Below are positions 14,891 to 58,201 of a stretch of 64,000 nt of DNA, in pieces. Each line of letters begins with the position of its first letter. Position 1 is the first letter of the stretch. The notes under the pieces were generated by a model, which saw only the letters and a program-made list of their open reading frames with translations, searched no databases and was not told where the DNA came from. The stretch is from contig CP136066.1 of NCBI GenBank assembly GCA_032622095.1, positions 107,097,319 to 107,161,318 on the forward strand, given 5' to 3'. The stretch is from Siphonodentalium dalli (lineage: Eukaryota > Mollusca > Scaphopoda > Gadilida > Siphonodentaliidae). Both the position numbers and the translations under genes were made by a program.

Positions 14891-15051
14891 TCGTCTACAA
14901 CAAAATCTTCGGCTAACTTCGGATTTTTTTTATAATCGTTATAAAAATAACGAATGGCGGCCGAATATTAGATTATATGCGCCCAATGGACATTATATAT
15001 ATATATTATCGGTATATTGAAAGAAAATATTATTGTTTTATTCAGCACCCT

Positions 15052-17600: not shown

Positions 17601-18315
17601 TGATATAGTTATGCCTCAAGATACAGTAATTGGCAAAAGTAAGTGTTGAATGGTTTTGTAATTTCGATAATATGCAGTTTGTTGAGTCAAACGAAAATAT
17701 TCCCAACAAGACCTGAAATTTCGCGATGTGATTACATATTAAATTATTGTTTTATTTGATACTCGTCCGTCTTGTTGTCCACTGACTAGTTTTTGAAGCC
17801 ACATCGTTGATCATTACGGGCTGTAGTGTCACAAATACACAGGTATGGATGTTAGTTCTTCATAGTCATTAACTCCATCGTTGTCATCGGAGTCTATCCC
17901 ACATACACTTGGAGATTCTGTGTTTTCGCAGGATTTGTGCTACTGACAAATGGACATTTCAGTGCAGCTGAGATATTTACTATAGCAATATAAACTTTGC
18001 TTTCACACTTCCCACGCCAGTTATATTTGGTGCACTCCAGTATAGCGACTGAAACCCAACATTCACCATCAATATTCTAACCACAATTAATCTTCACGCT
18101 TCGCGCATAGCTGTGACAATCAAAACAAGAAAACCATAGTCAGAAATGGTAACGCCACCAAGATTATATTATTAGCCATAAATATAAATTATAATACAAT
18201 TATTCTATAAACTAGCTTTCAAATTTTATGTGGGAAATTTGCATACTTCTATATTTCAAGTTTTCCCGTTTCTCGTGTTATACATTACTTTCTTCAAACT
18301 GTCTTCTTTATTACT
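17601..18315. other. no gene seen; one dispersed repeat
   Basis: The segment at about 18127-18195 duplicates 10803-10872. No coding evidence. Confidence 0.45.
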
Positions 18316-18935
18316 CAAGCTGATGGGCCCGACTTCGTCCGGGATGTTTCCCATCTGATTTCCGGCGAAAGGAGCGATTTGACCTTCAATTGACTATTTC
18401 GAAAGTCAGGGTCAGGTCAGGGTCATGATTTGACCCGTCCACAAACACCCCCACCCGGATAAAAGTACCACTAGGTATCAAATTTCGTCGAAATCCGTCC
18501 GTTTTACCCCACTTGACCTTTAATTAACAGTTTTGAAGGTCAAGGTAAGGTCGGAGTCATGATTTGACCCGTCCAAAACACTCCCCCGACAAAAGTACCA
18601 ATAGGTATCAAATTTCGTCGAAATCCATCCGTTTTACCCGATTTGACCTTTGATTGACCACATTGAAGGTCAAGGTCACGCCGATGTCACGATTTGACCC
18701 GTTCAAAACACTCCCCGGACAAAAGTATCCCTAGGTATCAAATTTCGCCGAAATTTGTCCGTTTTACCCAAATTGACCTTGCATTGACAGTTTTAAAGGT
18801 CAAGTCAGGTCGGGCTCACGATTTGACCCGTCCAAAACACTTCCCGGACACAAATACCCATAAGTATCAAATTACGTTGAAATCTATGGAAAGCCGAAGA
18901 GGACATGTTAGTTGCTAATTGCTAGATATACGACG
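18316..18935 (-). mobile_element. Helitron-like non-autonomous element, degraded
   Basis: Read on the minus strand it is a series of about four 128-bp units carrying GAAATTTGATAC, AAAAGTACC-type and GGGTCAAATC motifs. It ends with a hairpin (CCCGG...CCGGG around GACGAAGT), then CCCATCAG and CTTG. The unit vocabulary (TTGACCTTGACC, ACGGGTCAAATCGTGA) matches the fifth unit of the array at 48885-49473, which ends in a proper CTAG. Here CTAG is changed to CTTG and no clear 5' end is visible. Confidence 0.6.
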
Positions 18936-45800: not shown

Positions 45801-46698
45801 ATGTTTATTATTCTATTTTAAAATTTATGGTCATATTCAGAGGTAGGTCGGGAGAAAATATATGTGTAATGAATTTATCTGTATATATCATTCACTGGAT
45901 AATTTACCTTTTCCACTGTCAATTGCATGTTATAACTGCTTTAATAGTGGAACGATTTCAGTCATGGCTGAAATTTGGTAGTATTTTATTTTATCTGCTG
46001 TAGGCCAACTATTTTTTACTTTGATAAATTATATAAGCTTAGATATCTTGTTCAATTTTTAAAGCACAAATAAGTCAATTTACTTTACTCATCCAGTAAT
46101 GTACGGTACCAACTAAGTCAGATTAATATTTCCTACATGTATTTCTACAGGGCCACAATAACCAACTCAAGACACCTGCCGACTATTATAATAAAATGAA
46201 TAAATTTCTGGGACAAGCAGGGACAAGTATGCTTATAATGTAGCACTTTATTTGATGCAATGTCGATGACAGTGTTCTATTCATTGCTTTCATTTGTTTT
46301 CCCATCGATTCATACTCCCGTCATGCCATTCTCAATAAAGTGAAAGTTGGCAGATTTTGGTCGACTAAAATGTTTTATTCAAAGCGATGTCCATTTCCAT
46401 TGACACTCACACTTGGCTTATTGGTTAAGTTCTTGTTATTACTTCAGGCTAAACAAATCCCTCAAATACAGGAAATTTGAGTAGTCTCCCTTTAAATTGT
46501 CTTCTTTATTAAGCAATCATTCTAGTAACTTTTAGAAAAAAATACAATTAATACTTTTAAATGTCTCAGAATGGGTTCTTTTTGTCAAAGCATTCAAGTG
46601 TTCATTGTAGTTTATACGAAGATACATTAATAAAATTAATCTTATCTCAATCTTACAGAAGACATAAAAAGCCATAAGAATATTTAAAAATAAAGATA
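45801..46698. other. no gene seen
   Basis: AT-rich spacer; nothing supported. Confidence 0.4.
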
Positions 46699-47330
46699 TC
46701 TCATATATATTTTGAAGACCTCTGTCTGTTTGTTTGTCTGTCTGTCTGTCTGTATGTTTGTCTGTATGTTTGTCATTAATACAAATCTACGATTCTCGAC
46801 CGATCGGGACGAAACTTGGTGCGTGTGTGTAGTTTGACCAGGCGGTGGACGTTGTCGTATTGGCGAGCCCGTGCGGCGCCCGCTTCGCGCATGCGCAGAC
46901 GAGATCTCGGAAACGGGTGGAGCTATCGACTTGAAATTTGGTATGTGAATGTATCTTGCCCCGGATACAAATTTTATCGGGTCGCCGAGCCCGTGCGACG
47001 CCAGCTTCGCGCATGCGCAGACGAGATCTCGGAAACGGGTGGAGCTATCGACTTGAAATTTGGTATGTGAATGTATCTTGCCCCGGATACGAATTTTATC
47101 GGGTCGCCGAGCCCGTGCGACGCCAGCTTCGCGCATGCGCAGACGAGATCTCGGAAACGGGTGGAGCTATCGACTTGAAATTTGCTATGTGAATGTATCT
47201 TGCCCCGGATACGAATTTTATCGGTTGAAATTTGGTTTTTGAATAGCCCGGACAACGTCGGGCTGGGTAGAGCTATCGACTTGAAATTTGGTGTTTGAAT
47301 AGCCCGGACAACGTCGGGCTCATCGGCTAG
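46699..47330 (+). mobile_element. Helitron-like unit 1 of the array
   Basis: Begins TCTCATATATATTTTGAAGA after an A. It then has a TCTGTCTGTCTGTATGTTTG tract and three 122-bp repeats, each with CGCGCATGCGCA and GACTTGAAATTTGGTATG. It ends with a hairpin AGCCCG-GACAACGT-CGGGCT, then CATCGG and CTAG. A 5' TC, a 3' hairpin a few bases before CTRR, and A/T flanks are Helitron hallmarks. It has no Rep/helicase. The 3' hairpin module is duplicated here (about 47244 and 47302). Confidence 0.75.
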
Positions 47331-47708
47331 TCTCATATATATTTTGAAGACCTCTGTCTGTATGTATGTACCGGTATGTCATTGATACAAATCTACGATT
47401 CTCCACCGATCGGGACGAAACTTGGTACGTGTGTGTAGTTTGACCAGGCGGTCGTCCTTGTCGTATTGGCGAGCCCGTGCGACGCCCGTGCAGCGCATGC
47501 GCAGACGAGATCTCGGAAACGGGTGGAGCTATCGACTTGAAATTTGGTATGTGAATGTATCTTGCCCCGGATACGAATTTTTTCGGGTCACCGAGCCCGT
47601 GCGACGCCAGCTTCGCGCATGCGCAGACCAGATCTCGGAAACGGGTGGAGCTATCGACTTGAAATTTGGTTTTTGAATAGCCCGGACAACGTCGGGCTCA
47701 TCGGCCAG
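47331..47708 (+). mobile_element. Helitron-like unit 2 of the array
   Basis: Starts TCTCATATATATTTTG immediately after the CTAG of unit 1, carries two 122-bp repeats and ends with the same hairpin, then CATCGGCCAG (CTAG changed to CCAG). It has the shortest GTCT tract. Confidence 0.75.
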
Positions 47709-48348
47709 TCTCATATATATTTTGAAGACCTCTGTCTGTCTGTCTGTCTGTCTGTATGTTTGTCTGTATGTTTGTCATTTATACAAATCTACGATTCTCG
47801 ACCGATCGGGACGAAACTTGGTACGTGTGTGTAGTTTGACCAGGCGGTGGACGTTGTCGTATTGGCGAGCCCGTGCGGCGCCCGCTTCGCGCATGCGCAG
47901 ACGAGATCTCGGAAACGGGTGGAGCTATCGACTTGAAATTTGGTATGTGAATGTATCTTGCCCCGGATACGAATTTTATCGGGTCGCCGAGCCCGTGCGA
48001 CGCCAGCTTCGCGCATGCGCAGACGAGATCTCGGAAACGGGTGGAGCTATCGACTTGAAATTTGCTATGTGAATGTATCTTGCCCCGGATACGAATTTTA
48101 TCGGGTCGCCGAGCCCGTGCGGCGCCCGCTTCACGCATGCGCAGACGAGATCTCGGTAACGGGTGGAGCTATCGACTTGAAATTTGCTATGTGAATGTAT
48201 CTTGCCCCGGATACGAATTTTATCGGGTCGCCGAGCCCGTGCGACGCCAGCTTCGCGCATGCGCAGACCAGATCTCGGAAACGGGTGGAGCTATCGACTT
48301 GAAATTTTGTTTTTGAATAGCCCGGACAACGTCGGGCTCATCGGCTAG
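47709..48348 (+). mobile_element. Helitron-like unit 3 of the array
   Basis: Same 5' start and 3' hairpin-CTAG end as unit 1, with four 122-bp repeats. In one repeat the NRF-1-like word is changed (CACGCATGCGCA). Open frames of 75-120 residues on both strands only read the repeats. Confidence 0.75.
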
Positions 48349-48884
48349 AATATTATATATTTTGAAGACCTCTGTCTGTCTGTCTGTCTGTATGTTTGTC
48401 TGTATGTTTGTCTGTATGTTTGTCTGTATGTTTGTCATTAATACAAATCTACGATTCTCGACCGATCGGGACGAAACTTGGTGCGTGTGTGTAGTTTGAC
48501 CAGGCGGTGGACGTTGTCGTATTGGCGAGCCCGTGCGGCGCCCGCTTCGCGCATGCGCAGACGAGATCTCGGAAACGGGTGGAGCTATCGACTTGAAATT
48601 TGCTATGTGAATGTATCTTGCCCCGGATACGAATTTTATCGGTCGCCGAGCCCGTGCGACGCCAGCTTCGCGCATGCGCAGACGAGATCTCGGAAACGGG
48701 TGGAGCTATCGACTTGAAATTTGCTATGTGAATGTATCTTGCCCCGGATACGAATTTTATCGGTCGCCGAGCCCGTGCGACGCCAGCTTCGCGCATGCGC
48801 AGACGAGATCTCGGAAATGGGTAGAGCTATCGACTTGAAATTTGGTTTTTGAATAGCCCGGACAACGTCGGGCTCATCGGCTAG
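48349..48884 (+). mobile_element. Helitron-like unit 4 of the array
   Basis: The 5' end is altered to AATATTATATATTTTG. The GTCTGTATGTTT tract is the longest, followed by three 122-bp repeats and the hairpin plus CATCGGCTAG end. Confidence 0.7.
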
Positions 48885-49473
48885 TCTATTATATATTTTG
48901 GAAGATCTGTTTGTGTGTCTGTGTGTTCGCGATGAACTCGAAAACGGCCGACCCGATTTCGATGAAACTTGGTATGTGGGGGTATTTTCGGCCGGCGGGT
49001 GGCATGGGCCTATTAATTTGTCCGTGCGACGTGACCTTGACCTTGAAATCGGGTCATTTCAAGGTCAAACGCCCGAATATCACGGGATTTCGATGAAACT
49101 TGGTATGTGGGGGTACTTTCTTATGGAGAGTCTCATAAGCATATTCATTTGCCCGTGCAACGTGACCTTGACCTTGAAATCGGGTAACTTCAAGGTCAAA
49201 TCGCCAATTTTGATGGGATTTCGACGAAATTTGATACGTGGGGTTACTTTTGTCCACTGATTGTTTTGGACGGGTCCAATCGTGACCCCGACCAGACCTT
49301 GACCTTCAAAATGATCAATTCGAGGTCAAATCGGGTAAAACCGGATGGATTTCGACGGGTACTTTTGTCCGGGCAGTGTTTTTGGACTGGTCAAATCGTG
49401 ACCCCTCTTGACCTTGACCTTCAAAATGGACAATTCAAGGTCAAAGCCCGGACGAATTCGGGTCACCTTCTAG
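48885..49473 (+). mobile_element. Helitron-like unit 5, different subfamily
   Basis: Begins TCTATTATATATTTTGGAAG and has a GTGTGTCTGTGTG tract. Its repeats contain GATGAAACTTGGTATGTGGG and TGACCTTGACCTTGAAATCG, and it ends with hairpin AGCCCGGACGAATTCGGGT, CACCTT and CTAG, followed by T. The internal repeat differs from units 1-4 but the terminal plan is the same. It is related to the minus-strand copy at 18316-18935. Confidence 0.7.
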
Positions 49474-49940
49474 TATATATATATATATTAAAACAAATAA
49501 AATTTGAATTGTACCTGCCAACCATAATTTTTCTAAATTGTAACTCAAACCTGCCATTTAAAGCAGGGTTTCCACTAGGGGATGGGGGATTGTGGCCGTA
49601 TTTTGGGAAGCAAATGTACCCGGTACTCTGTCGGGAGAAAATTGGGATGTTTATCACTGAAAAGTAGCCACTTCCTTGCACTTGAGACAACAAGCAGAAA
49701 CATTCAAGCTCCGTATAGAAACCAAATTAAAACAGATCGTCTTTCTTTAATCTCAAGTTAATGAACTAAAAGCATGTAAGCACCACAACATACTTCTTTA
49801 TTAGGAATTTGGGAAAGGACCCGGGAGGATTTGAAAGCGCAGTTTGCCCTTTCTTACAACCCAGTTAAGATGAATTTGGGAGTTATGAGATGGTACACAT
49901 AACAATGAGGATGAAAAATGATGTAAACATATTATTTCTT

Positions 49941-51317: not shown

Positions 51318-52365
51318 TGAAAAAACGGCCGTATTATAGTATTGGTCCGTCCGTCCGTCCGGGCGTCCGTCCGTTAACCTGGTTTCCGGATGATAACTTT
51401 AGTTAGAGTGATCCAAATTTAATAAAATTTGGTATGTGGGTTTATTAGCCGAAAACTAAGTTCAAGTTCGAATTTGGGTTCCGCCCGCCAAATTTCACCG
51501 GAGTTTTGCCCCTTATTTGACGTTTTTTTACCTAGAAAATCCTTGAAATTTGTTGTCCAGATGATAACTTTAGTATAGTTTATCGGAATGAATCCAAATT
51601 TGGTATATTACTTTCTCCCACCAAAACACAGGTCAAGTTCGAACTTGGGTTCTGTCCCACCATTTTTGGCAGAGTTATGCCCCTTTTTCGACTCAAAAAA
51701 TTCAGTTTTTCTTATGTTTTTTGGTTTCCGGATGATAACTCGATTTTGGAATGTTTATACGCAAAACCCGTTTTTTTGTGGATTACATCGAAATACAGCT
51801 CAAGTCCGAATTTCATTTTAATCCGATAATTTTTGCGAGAGTTATGGCCCCTTTTTTGACGTAATTTGACTTAGAAAATCCCTGAAATTTGTTGTCCGGA
51901 TGATAACTTTAGTTAGAGTGAACCGATTTCAATCAAATTTGGTATGTGGGTTTATTAGGAGAAAAGACAGCTCAAGTTCGAATTTGGGTTCCGTCCGCCA
52001 ATTTTCACCGGAGTTATGCCCCTTATTTGACGTAATTCCGGATGATAACGTTAGTTAGAGTGAACCGATTTCAATCAAATTTGGTATGTGGGTTTATTAG
52101 GAGAAAAGACAGCTCAAGTTCGAATTTGGGTTCTGTCCGCCAATTTTCACCGGAGTTATGCCCCTTATTTGACGTAATTTGACTTAGAAAATCCCTGAAA
52201 TTTGTTGTCCGGATGATAACTTTACTAGAGCTTATCGGATTCAATGATAATTTGGTATATTACTTTCTCCCACCAAAACACAGGTCAAGTTCAAATTTGA
52301 GTTCCGTCCGCCAATTTTCCCCAGAGAGGGCGTATTTTGCACGCCCAGCGTAGCTCTTGTTAAAG
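51318..52365 (+). mobile_element. Helentron-like tandem-repeat element, hairpin ends
   Basis: Head: hairpin TACGCCCGTTTG/AAACGGCCGTA followed by a GTCCGTCCGTCCGTCCGGGC tract. Body: six diverged 130-180-bp units with CCGGATGATAACTTTAGTTA, CAAATTTGGTATGTGGGTTT, CAAGTTCGAATTTGGGTTC and GGAGTTATGCCCCTTATTTG. Tail: GAGGGCGTATTTTGCACGCC, again a hairpin, then CAGCGTAGCTCTTGTT. Head and tail share inverted GCCC/GGGC cores. The plan (subterminal inverted words, GTCC microsatellite, tandem core, 3' hairpin) resembles Helentron-derived HINE elements; that assignment is inference. Confidence 0.65.
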
Positions 52366-53477: not shown

Positions 53478-54546
53478 CAGGGTTTCCGCTATGGCGGCAC
53501 AGGCTCCAGGTTTTCCTCCTTCACTTGCATGGATTTTTGTAGTTAAAAATTAACCCTTCTCAACATTCCTGATAGAAATACCTTTTATCTGATATATCTC
53601 ATTTATTATTGGATTATTTTGACGCACTCTTTGCCCCTATTAAATGATTCATTTATTCTGATTTTTATGTGTACCCATATGATAGTATGGTACACATAGT
53701 GTTGTCGTCCAGATTGATCACTCGTCGATCGTCCATCTGTCTCTCTGACCATTTCTTCGTAGACACTTTACGCATGGTGCGATAATGCAAACATATTTTA
53801 TTCGATCGGAACCAAATTTTATATATGTGTTTCTCAGACTAAGTTTGAGTTCGAATGTGGGTTTGATCAGAGTTTTTTTTTACAGAGTTATAGCCCTTCT
53901 TCGACTTAGAATTCACACATGCCGCAATAACTTAAAACAGATTTATCTGATTGATACCAAATTTAGTATGTGAATTTCTCAGCCCAAAATACAGATAGAA
54001 TTCGAATTTGAGTTTGATCCAATTTTTTTTACTGAGTTATGGCCGTTTTCCTCGACTTAGAATTCACGCATGCTGCAATAATTAAAAACAAATTTATCTG
54101 ATCGAAACCAAATTTGGTATATGAGTTTCTCAGCCCAAAATACAGATAATACTTGGGTAATGGAGTTATGGCCCTTTTTTTTCTAAATAGGATTTTAGCG
54201 ACCCAAGCTGAAAATAACTATCACCAAGGTATGGATTAAACATCTGCCGATCGTGATTGGCCTCTCGTTTTAAATGGAGGTGAAGGTCGCAATGCCTATC
54301 ATGTTCATTGACAAATACATAATTATAAGCAGTCGGCAGACCTTACAGGATTCAATGATTTCAATTTGTTAATATCAAATCCATTGAATATACTTATCTA
54401 GACACTTGTGCAGGTATATTCCCAAGTGCAAGGAAATGGGAGAGTTTTCAGATAAAAAATATCAAAATTCGCATATCACATGTTCAGACCGTCCTATATA
54501 TCCTAGGTTATACGGACCCAACATTTAGACCCTAGCGGAAACCCTG
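53478..54546. mobile_element. CAGGGTTTCC-family transposon, copy 2 (1.07 kb)
   Basis: The ends CAGGGTTTCCGCTA and TAGCGGAAACCCTG are flanked by AGTTG on both sides (53473-53477 and 54547-54551). The last 125 bp match copy 1 (AAGTGCAAGGAAATGG). A Helentron-like repeat occupies the interior. No transposase. Confidence 0.8.
53672..54240 (+). mobile_element. Helentron-like tandem repeat, GTGTACC hairpin head (nested)
   Basis: Head: GTGTACCCATATG..AGTATGGTACAC hairpin, then GTCCATCTGTCTCTCTGACC. Body: three diverged units of about 130-165 bp with CCAAATTT(A/G)GTATGTGAATT, TCTCAGCCCAAAATACAGAT, GAATTCGAATTTGAGTTTGA and GAGTTATGGCC. The shared unit grammar with the 51318 element is clear although the sequences differ. 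Confidence 0.65.
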
Positions 54547-55296: not shown

Positions 55297-55482
55297 ATGG
55301 CTACCGCTGCAATTCCTCTGGAAGAATTTGTTGGAGGAGGATCACCAATAAACTTGATCGAAGATATGACCTCTTCTGATTGTCCGACTGGGATGGAAGG
55401 CAAGACTGATATTATTGAGGATGGCATCATTTTGGATGATTCACAAGAGGATGAAGACGATGATGATGATGATGATGACGAC

Positions 55483-55513
<31 letters not shown>

Positions 55514-58201
55514 AAGAATTCCAGTGTAGTGTTTGTAATGAGTCATTTTCTGAAGAAGATGACCTCAAAAAGCACATGGAGTTACATAATAGTGATCAGC
55601 ATACATGTAACGTCTGCTCGGCAATATTCTCTCGGAATAGTAAGCTCCGAGTTCACATGGAGACGCATAAGGATGAGCAACTGTCCTGCGGAATTTGTTT
55701 TGAAAATTTCACAAAGAAAATAAAATATAGAGAGCATATGCTGGAGCATGATGGGAAAGAATTATGCTGTGTGGAATGCTTGAAGACATTTGAACATGTT
55801 GATGACTTGAGACGTCACATGAAAAAACATGTTAGCAACCCGCTAATGTGTAGGATATGTTCAAACATGTTCACAGACAAAACTGAGCTGAAGCGACACA
55901 TCAGAGCTCATAAGTTAGATGCGGGTAACATGTTTTGTGTGCAAAATGCGGTTTTCTGGAAAGCGTGAAATGAAGAATCATTTGAAAACACATAATTTGG
56001 ATCCACTCGGTTGTAGTGTCTGCGATAAACGTTTTGCTAAAAGAAGAGAGCTCAAGCGCCATATGAAGATCCACAGTCTTGATGCTTTCCATTGTGATGT
56101 GTGCGATGAACGATTTGAAAAAAAACGAGAGTTAAAAAATCATCTGAAAACACATACTAAGCTTGATCCTTTCGTTTGTAGCCTGTGCAATGCGAGATTC
56201 TCTAAACTTAGGAAACTCAAAGGGCACATGAAAATCCACAAGTTCGTTTGTAACATCTGTAATGATTCGTTCCAATTACGTCGACCATACAATCGCCACA
56301 TGCAATTACACAAACCTAAACGTTTTTCTTGCGAAAACTGCAATGAGTCATTTGATGGCAAAAGGGAATACAATCATCATCAGAAAGTTCACCTCGATGA
56401 GGTATTTATATGCGATGAATGCATGCGGACATTCCCAAACAGGCGTGAGTTGGATCAGCACAAGATGACAACACATGGTTTCGCAGAATTCAGATGCGGA
56501 TGCTGCACTGCTGTGTTCACCGAGCAAGATAAATTAGAGCAACATATGGAAATCCATGAAAGAAATCCAGAGAGTGATTATGAAAACTACAACAATTCCG
56601 ATAATTCCAATGGCGAATTGATTCGATGTCCCTTCTGCATCCAGAGGTTCAACAATCAATCCGACCTAAATACACATATTGAGTCACATGATCAGACAAA
56701 GCCTCTGACATGTAAAACTTGTTTTCTAATTTTTATGAATCAATATGATTTGGATAAACACATGGAAACTCATCAAGGACGGAAGGTTTTAGGCTTGGGC
56801 AGTAAATTTGGTATTCATGAGGATAGTAACTCACACAGCCGTGTTGGAAATATCTCATTTGCACTTAACAGAATTCTGAAAAATCGTCTGAAGAACCAAC
56901 TTGGTGATAGATCGCCAATGCGAGATGATAATCGAGAAAATTATATGGAGAATACAAGCGATATTAATGATGATACTGAGAACATGGCTGTCGAAACATT
57001 TGTATGTGAAGTTTGCCAAGGCAGTTTCTCCAGTCGAGAGGAGTTGGTTATCCATAAACGAACACATCTTACTGAACAGGTTTTCAGTTGCGACGTTTGC
57101 TACAAAAACTTCTCGAGTAAGAATCACCTTCGACGTCATAAGAAAATCCACGGTGAAACCGATCAATTCTTGTGCTCTGTTTGCCATGTCAAATTTATGG
57201 ACAAAAACAGCTTGAGAATTCACATCCAATCACATCCAGAAAAGCGGTTCGTATGTAAAATTTGCTTGGCTTGTTTCTCAAAAAGTGGCGGCTTGCAGAA
57301 GCATAGATTGACTCATGACGAAGAAAAGCGGTTCATGTGTAGAAAATGCAACAAAGGATTTCCGAAGAAGAGTACATTGAATATACATATGGCATCTCAT
57401 ACTGGACGAACATTATACACTTGCAACATATGTTCCAAGGTTTTCTTTACTGGGTCATTTTTGGAACGACACAAACTCCTGCACACAAATAATCGTCCTT
57501 ACATATGCATGATTGCAGATTGTCCAAAAACATTTGCCGATCCTGTGAGCTTGCGGCAACACATGAGGATACATGAAAAGAAGAATGAATTTACCTGGCC
57601 AGAAGATGGCAATCTTGAAGTGTTTGAGTTAAGTAGGATCTCCGCCCATGATAACAGTAATACGTCGGCCATCAGGGTGTCAGGCGATGAATTTTATGAT
57701 GGCAATGGAATGGATATATCTGGTGAAAATGGTGATACATGTGTAATATCTTTTGATTCTAATTCTGGTTACGATGACGATGGATCTTTCTTTCAGGCAG
57801 TAAATTCCCAGGTTGATTTTCAAACAGATGAGAGTTTTGTTGCAATCAGTTCTGAACAGCCTTCTCGTAGTAGATCTCGAAGAAAACAAAGTTTGCCCAG
57901 GAGAGCACAATGTGGTTTAGCTGAGGCTAATGGTGTTGATCATATTGAACCTGATAACGCTCTTGAAGCAGAAGGTCAAGTTAAAGAATTGAATGACCCA
58001 ACTGACTCTGAGAAAGACGGTGAGTGTGAAGATGTTATGTTTGTAAATCCACTCGCCGCATTGACGAAGGATCAGATTGTTGGTATTGCTGGAGAACGAG
58101 ATTCCTCTGATGATGGTGATGCGAAATTTCAATGTGGCGTCTGTTGCTCTTCATTCTCAAATAGTTCGGAATTGGAAATGCATGTTGAAACACATGTTTA
58201 G
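55297..58201 (+). CDS. C2H2 zinc-finger protein, 23 fingers (one frameshift)
   Basis: The start ATG has a strong context (ACCATGG) and follows in-frame stops. The protein would be about 967 residues: an acidic N-terminus with 18 consecutive Asp (residues 54-71), fifteen closely spaced fingers (first cysteine at residue 77), a linker of about 75 residues, seven more fingers (the seventh with C-x4-C), an acidic Ser/Asp-rich region with a basic RSRSRRKQSLPRR stretch (possible nuclear signal), and a lone C-terminal finger. Spacers are mostly not TGEKP; LD-containing linkers (HNLDP, HSLDA) dominate fingers 5-9. The phase changes at the GGG run 55923-55925. Removing one G lets finger 5 run straight into finger 6 (LDAVTCFVC), so a recent or artefactual 1-bp insertion is likely. 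Probable role: nuclear DNA-binding regulator; no orthologue or target can be named. No KRAB, BTB or SCAN domain is visible. Confidence 0.9.
55456..55509 (+). repeat. (GAT)n coding microsatellite, 18 Asp codons
   Basis: Eighteen GAT/GAC codons in a row encode the poly-Asp tract just before finger 1. Three GAC interruptions limit slippage. Length variation between individuals is likely. Confidence 0.9.

Follow-up and report, generated by a model that had tools for sequence, protein, structure and literature searches.

Head-to-tail Helitron chains in the scaphopod Siphonodentalium dalli, which may have grown mainly by insertion at resident 5' ends

The window analysed here is a stretch of 64,000 nucleotides from Siphonodentalium dalli, and its positions 46699-49473 hold five non-autonomous Helitrons in exact head-to-tail contact, with 0 bases between units. 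The units belong to two families and have probably (at roughly 0.55) been chained mainly via successive, independent insertions on the 5' side. Far from being peculiar to this locus, the array is one of thousands of chains in the genome, and the four exact junction patterns between the two families occur together 11,435 times in the assembly (2.23 Gb, nine contigs). The origin of tandem Helitron arrays is debated: the terminator may be bypassed, multimeric circles may be formed, or one copy may insert into another. The exact junctions of this genome, more than 11,000 in number, allow these options to be separated statistically. Tandem or adjacent Helitrons are described from bat, silkworm, maize, rice, and fungi, and are attributed to terminator bypass, to circles, or to insertion into the 5' end of another element, in the available parts of PMC4067079, PMC5148889, and PMC12628747. 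A literature search, which covered few subscription papers, found none in which these options are tested on large numbers of junctions or the order of families is given. Tandem Helitrons are already known; what is added here is their scale, orientation, and age order.

Family A comprises units 1-4 and family B unit 5, all on the plus strand. Unit 1 (46699-47330, 632 bp) follows an A at 46698 and contains three internal 122-bp repeats, detected by TRF at 46864-47224. Unit 2 (47331-47708, 378 bp) has two repeats and ends in CCAG in place of CTAG. Unit 3 (47709-48348, 640 bp) has four repeats (TRF, 47866-48307), and unit 4 (48349-48884, 536 bp) has three (TRF, 48526-48844) behind a degenerate 5' start, AATATTATATA. 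Unit 5 (48885-49473, 589 bp) is without the 122-bp repeat, carries a 131-bp tandem repeat at 48955-49250, and is followed by a host T at 49474. An earlier note on the window had described five Helitron-like units lying head to tail with no spacer between an outer A and an outer T, with the repeat in 3, 2, 4, and 3 copies in units 1-4 and absent from unit 5; the exact coordinates reproduce all of this. A genome-wide count of the 28-base junction of units 1 and 2 gives 6,546, against 0 for the reversed-pattern control, and an array by chance is therefore excluded.

The 5' start is TCTCATATATA in units 1-3 and TCTATTATATA in unit 5, and the start of unit 4 begins with AA, so that the TC typical of canonical Helitrons is present in units 1, 2, 3, and 5 of the five. 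At greater length, family A units start TCTCATATATATTTTGAAGACC (degenerate in unit 4) and end AGCCCGGACAACGTCGGGCT-CATCGG-CTAG (CCAG in unit 2), while the family B unit starts TCTATTATATATTTTGGAAGA. The 3' terminus is CTAG in four of the five units, as in the hairpin and CTRR of canonical Helitrons. In unit 1 (47301-47330, plus strand), an AGCCC..GGGCT hairpin at 47301-47320 precedes CATCGG and CTAG, and the 3' ends of units 2, 3, and 4 are laid out likewise on the same strand (47679-47708, 48319-48348, and 48855-48884). The 3' end of unit 5 (49447-49473, plus strand) consists of a weak CCCGGA..TTCGGG hairpin, TCACCTT, and CTAG. The pattern proposed earlier, a hairpin followed by six nucleotides and CTAG, thus applies to units 1-4, with CCAG in unit 2, but not to unit 5, with its weaker hairpin and seven nucleotides. 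Nor does unit 5 have the same ends as the others, as had been stated; the ends are only similar, are specific to each family, and each recur thousands of times. Folded as single-stranded DNA, the A-type end reaches -6.1 kcal/mol (17 of 200 shuffles equally good) and the B-type end of the window -3.5 kcal/mol (62 of 200). Because so many shuffles fold equally well, the hairpin by itself is weak evidence. Imperfect hairpins escaped the automated repeat search.

The Helitron identity of the units, already proposed in the earlier note, is well supported by insertion at A|T, a clean empty site, Rep-helicase open reading frames upstream of matching 3' ends, and single copies flanked by A and T. The empty site is that of L033, a single family A unit of 502 bp, whose flanks, once joined, agree with the minus strand of the window at 168 of 179 positions. 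The insertion point falls on A|T at 15006/15005, outside the array, and validates the element boundaries. No target-site duplication is present in the 179 bases of joined flanks compared, and the site agrees with the canonical mode of insertion at A|T without duplication. A first search for empty sites gave 1,855 spanning matches, among which TA repeats and element ends predominated. A second, with a low-complexity filter and 41 queries, gave at least 16, and the further query loci among the spanning matches listed are L004, L013, L015, L030, L035, and L036. L024 and L027 have flank, unit, and downstream sequence in common and differ in repeat number; they look like a duplicated locus and are not decisive. 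No polymorphic pair of before and after states was found for an array.

Loci were sampled from the first 100 listed starts (40 of family A and 20 of family B, all on contig C1 and A-flanked by design), to which L083-L086 were added as cases of B upstream of A, and L087-L101 mostly for their several junctions. In all, 127 sampled units were delimited, most with both ends present. T directly follows 140 of 145 sampled 3' ends, and unit 3 of the window, which is followed by the degenerate unit 4, is among the five exceptions. Single units with A and T flanks, a check suggested by the earlier note, were found at sampled loci, and among 35 first units in the sample whose A 3' end was recognised, 15 border apparent host sequence on the 3' side. 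The genome contains 16,426 exact family A 5' ends and 17,333 exact 3' ends; 7,593 of the 16,426 5' ends have an A flank, a count which, like all A-flanked counts here, includes joints of the CTA|TC and CTTA|TC type. Such variants, with the final G of the upstream 3' end missing or changed, are seen in L005, L009, L043, and L094.

The first 100 family A 5' ends listed comprise 65 that are A-flanked, 24 that follow GGCTAG, and 11 others. Ten of these 11 lie behind another hairpin-CTAG or CTAG end and one behind a host T. In nine of them, the preceding sequence is CTAACCTGCTAG or a near variant (seven), CCACCTGCTAG (one), or the host T (one); the remaining two are preceded by CTAACCTGCTAG in L025 and by a B end in L083. 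Among the 100 listed, almost every A 5' end that lacks an A flank is therefore preceded by another element. A third family, whose copies end CTAACCTGCTAG, is often found directly before family A units (L102-L110 and L025), and in L025 a copy of it spans TCTATACTATAT to CTAACCTGCTAG between two A units.

Autonomous partners, consisting of a Rep HUH domain and a PIF1 helicase and sharing the 3' ends of the two families, are present, as for canonical Helitrons. At least 151 matches to PF14214 (Helitron_like_N) occur in the genome, many within long open frames. One frame, in L080, encodes 1,590 aa up to the 3' edge of the extracted sequence, where it is still open; it matches PIF1 (3e-67), Helitron_like_N (4e-46), and REP_ORF2-G2P (3e-7). 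Its residues 101-170 carry N-terminal STPR repeats (PF21107, four stretches), which are unexpected in a Helitron protein. The earlier note had proposed a search for a Rep-helicase partner with the same 3' end, and such an end lies in six of 17 regions downstream of Rep-helicase frames: a B 3' end in three (L065, L066, and L068) and an A 3' end, in the variant CACATCGGCTAG, in three (L070, L072, and L079). Two regions hold another hairpin-CTAG end (L063 and L064), and in nine of the 17 no such 3' end was found. The homology of A-type copies ends at most 1 bp from CTAG in L070 and L072, and within 8-19 bp in other pairs. In L063, L064, L065, L068, L072, and L079, the start of another element lies directly behind the autonomous copy. 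An A or B 5' end was not found in three stretches of ~1.6-3 kb upstream of autonomous genes (L080-L082). Assignment of the families to Helentrons or HINEs is rejected on the basis of A|T insertion and TC...CTAG ends, as opposed to the T-rich boundaries and sites given for those elements in the available part of PMC4067079, which also ascribes subterminal inverted repeats to them. Weaker Helitron_like_N matches, e.g. at C8:4875782, mark a second class of Rep-helicase, perhaps Helentron-like, with open frames of ~2,200-2,900 codons.

The genome-wide junctions are numerous, precise, and oriented. On both strands together, exact zero-spacer junctions number 6,546 for A followed by A (A>A), 1,875 for A>B, 321 for B>A, and 2,693 for B>B, and the reversed-pattern controls give 0 for each genome-wide count of ends or junctions. 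B starts lie behind any CTAG in 5,295 cases and behind an A in 4,319; the initial TC of both families is built into the search patterns. The A>A joint CTAG|TC is in register in 6,546 cases and off register, shortened by 1-9 nt, in 135. Among 100 listed off-register joints, none can be explained by insertion at an A|T inside the consensus 5' end, and 16 read CTAG|TATATATA, which might reflect insertion into copies whose TA runs are longer, at an A|T within the element. A search for the exact 32-base palindrome expected of two A units head to head, in its zero-spacer form, gives 0 occurrences in the genome. An opposite-strand end was seen at one of 60 sampled loci, twelve bases before the first unit of L035; abutting inverted copies may have been lost or collapsed during assembly. 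Of the 16,426 exact A 5' ends, 6,867 (at least 41.8%) are immediately preceded by an A or B 3' end, a share that local duplication inflates. Exact A and B 5' ends together make up ~1e-4 of the AT dinucleotides in the genome, estimated at 2.28e8 by extrapolation from the window.

The order of the two families is strongly asymmetric. Unordered joining predicts equal numbers of A>B and B>A; instead, a 5.8-fold excess of A>B is observed. Among residents with an A or B neighbour upstream, B is preceded by A in 1,875 of 4,568 cases and A by B in 321 of 6,867. Family A is apparently the younger family, judging by divergence. The 5' core diverges from its consensus by 2.8% in A (n=93) and by 11.9% in B (28 of 30 B units usable), nearest-neighbour distances are 0.017 and 0.051, respectively, and 3' subterminal divergence is 0.040 in A (n=92) vs 0.112 in B (n=30). 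In all nine sampled arrays measurable for both families, B is more diverged than every A unit. Two of the nine, L083 and L085, are B>A arrays, with an upstream B at 0.12 and 0.14 and a downstream A at 0.00 and 0.05. The diversity of B, which partly reflects subfamilies, overstates its age, and the ages are for this reason relative rather than dated; B, which has autonomous copies with long open frames, may still be active. As A is less diverged and lies mostly upstream of B, newcomers would lie mostly on the 5' side, and the 321 B>A junctions are exceptions to this order. No gradient of age from first to last A unit was detected within arrays (n=23, P=0.62; n=22, P=0.40), in tests of little power.

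In structure, neighbouring units resemble each other no more than random pairs do. In 32 adjacent A-A pairs, concordance is 0.31 for repeat number (null 0.27), 0.53 for hairpin number (null 0.54), and 0.25 for the 3' tail (null 0.32), which implies that the main route of growth joins independent copies. Single-base differences in the 5' core are slightly fewer within arrays (0.037 vs 0.049; 1 of 2000 permutations). The same holds when common sites (0.31 vs 0.37; 33 of 1000) or rare sites (0 of 1000) are taken separately, and there is modest local copying within arrays. An earlier similarity test on the 3' segment, from which three of 92 A units without a 5' core were left out, gave 184 of 2000; structural variants inflated its distances, and the 5' core alone was used instead. 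One unit of L083 has an extra internal 3' end (1043-1064) followed by more repeat, and units in L084 and L100 combine an A start with a B end; these oddities suggest bypass of the terminator or exchange of 3' ends.

The preferred reading builds on the termini, A|T insertion without duplication, thousands of joints, their orientation, the independence of neighbours, and the family order. The Rep-helicase transposase would treat the 5' terminus of a resident copy, where host A meets TC, as a preferred and oriented target. In Helraiser, according to the available part of PMC4778049, the transposase nicks the 5' end and holds it by a tyrosine, and attack by the CTAG 3'-OH yields a circle with an exact TC-CTAG joint. 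By analogy, we infer that the transposase may open the resident at A|TC and that the CTAG 3'-OH of the incoming copy may attack this 5' end rather than its own, so that the CTAG-3' end is joined to the resident 5'-TC end. The product would be the same CTAG-TC joint that closes a circle, formed between two copies. Since the host A stays on the left, the next copy could repeat the step, and the array would grow 5'-ward; local duplication and gene conversion would modify it afterwards.

It is unlikely that the arrays arose instead as ready-made multimers, inserted after the terminator had been bypassed or a circle recopied during rolling-circle replication. This is the published account of tandem Helitrons in bat and silkworm, as given in the available part of PMC4067079, and it explains the exact joints and their orientation; the slight single-base likeness within arrays and the internal 3' end in L083 also agree with it. 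However, the 32 adjacent pairs lack the expected structural concordance, multimers from a single source cannot combine A, B, and other families, and A>B and B>A should be equally frequent, in conflict with the 1,875 and 321 observed. Read-through replication, one of two mechanisms offered in the earlier note, is thus not the best fit, with repeat number, hairpin number, and 3' tail all at the concordance of random pairs.

Quite unlikely, too, is a general preference for A|T followed by AT-rich sequence, under which the resident end A|TCTCATATATATTTT would merely resemble a normal target; orientation is likewise predicted. At sampled loci, the A/T fraction of host sequence 3' of insertions is 0.84-1.00 from +2 to +10 (43 flanks, chosen for a T at +1), and 5' flanks are less AT-rich, at 0.60-0.89 from -20 to -2 (57 flanks, chosen for an A at -1; three of 60 5' flanks were dropped), as this explanation would have it. 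A|T sites at least five bases into the element (CA|TATATATTTT) match host flanks better than the terminus does, yet off-register joints are few (135, compared with 6,546 in register), and not one of the 100 listed falls at those sites of the consensus end. Host flanks continue with TA in 33 of 43 cases and with TC in two, and the resident end differs from this. The share of A insertions that abut an A or B 3' end is also far above the frequency of such sites.

Unequal crossing-over of an initial dimer, as in a satellite, with secondary segmental duplication is improbable as the main cause. Some arrays do bear marks of local duplication: long arrays at C1:31736873-31757835 and C2:103714336-103803862 show higher-order junction spacing, which points to later segmental duplication. 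In the former (31.74-31.76 Mb), junctions are repeated at spacings of 13,309 and 11,713 bp, and in the latter a single cluster at 103.71-103.80 Mb holds 17 of the first 100 listed B>A places. In L100, a 526-bp block is repeated with host flank included. Short arrays, on the other hand, are structurally heterogeneous and of mixed families, and single copies flanked by A and T are common. The earlier note had held that its account would fail if all copies came from unequal crossing-over of one satellite; the mixed families and single units argue against this as the main cause, while some copies do stem from local duplication. For the same reasons, together with the lack of concordance between neighbours, the arrays are not classical satellite DNA.

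Least probable is growth on the 3' side by insertion at a resident's CTAG|T, the other mechanism of the earlier note, which yields identical joints and fits the younger A downstream of B in L083 and L085, but which requires a G|T target unlike the A|T of sampled host sites and predicts an excess of B>A, opposite to the 5.8:1 seen with A the less diverged family. Of the 11 listed A 5' ends with neither an A flank nor GGCTAG, only one is free of an element end in front. Overall, the Helitron identity and the array described earlier stand, and neither of the two mechanisms of growth is the best fit.

Helraiser and the non-autonomous HelibatN of Myotis are canonical Helitrons. The elements described here resemble such Helitrons in their 5'-TC, 3' hairpin and CTAG, A|T insertion without duplication, and Rep-helicase (PMC4778049 and the available part of PMC4067079). 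The elements themselves are ordinary; what is unusual is their massive, oriented chaining across families. The precise CTAG-TC joint is found in circles of Helraiser, in the part of PMC4778049 available, whereas here it lies between copies and families, by the thousand, and is fixed in chromosomes. As in S. dalli, the Helitrons of Myotis lucifugus, Bombyx mori, and maize include tandem or adjoining copies, distantly related ones among them; PMC4067079, in its available part, puts these bat, silkworm, and maize clusters down to bypass of the termination signal, whereas independence and order point here to serial, oriented joining. Head-to-tail arrays are likewise formed by plant centromeric Helitrons (Xiong et al. 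2016, per the available parts of PMC12628747 and PMC5148889), where the copies are described as truncated and many arrays as having multiple 5' ends but a single 3' end, whereas most sampled units here have two ends. For Fusarium and Metarhizium, the available text of PMC5148889 presents one case with two options left open; here, many cases are combined with tests between the options. Oyster Helentron-borne satellite repeats (PMC7492417, as available) are also non-autonomous rolling-circle elements with central tandem repeats. The oyster elements are given there as Helentrons, whereas those of S. dalli have canonical Helitron ends and are chained as whole elements.

A broader proposal, which is tentative and falls somewhat short of even odds, is that the transposase prefers resident 5' termini, including those of other families, as an oriented dock (CTAG to TC). 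Arrays would then be ordered in time with the youngest copy 5', and self-docking would shield host genes and build satellite-like DNA. If resident 5' ends are true targets, the closing of circles and insertion into a target would be one chemistry. Array order could then be used to date transposon families, and one path from dispersed transposons to satellite DNA would be explained.

The window contains further repeats and a putative gene. A decayed B-like element on the minus strand at 18241-18760 has repeats with GACGAAATTTGATACCTA and ends CCCGGACGAAGTCGGGCCCATCAGCTTG, followed by A rather than T. Tandem repeats with 142- and 151-bp units lie at 51895-52179 and 53850-54148, respectively, with a motif near AAATTTGGTATGTG; the motif also recurs within families A and B. 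On the plus strand at 55297-58201, two overlapping open frames of 223 and 760 aa, in which a GAT repeat encodes an aspartate run, look by eye like a C2H2 zinc-finger protein.
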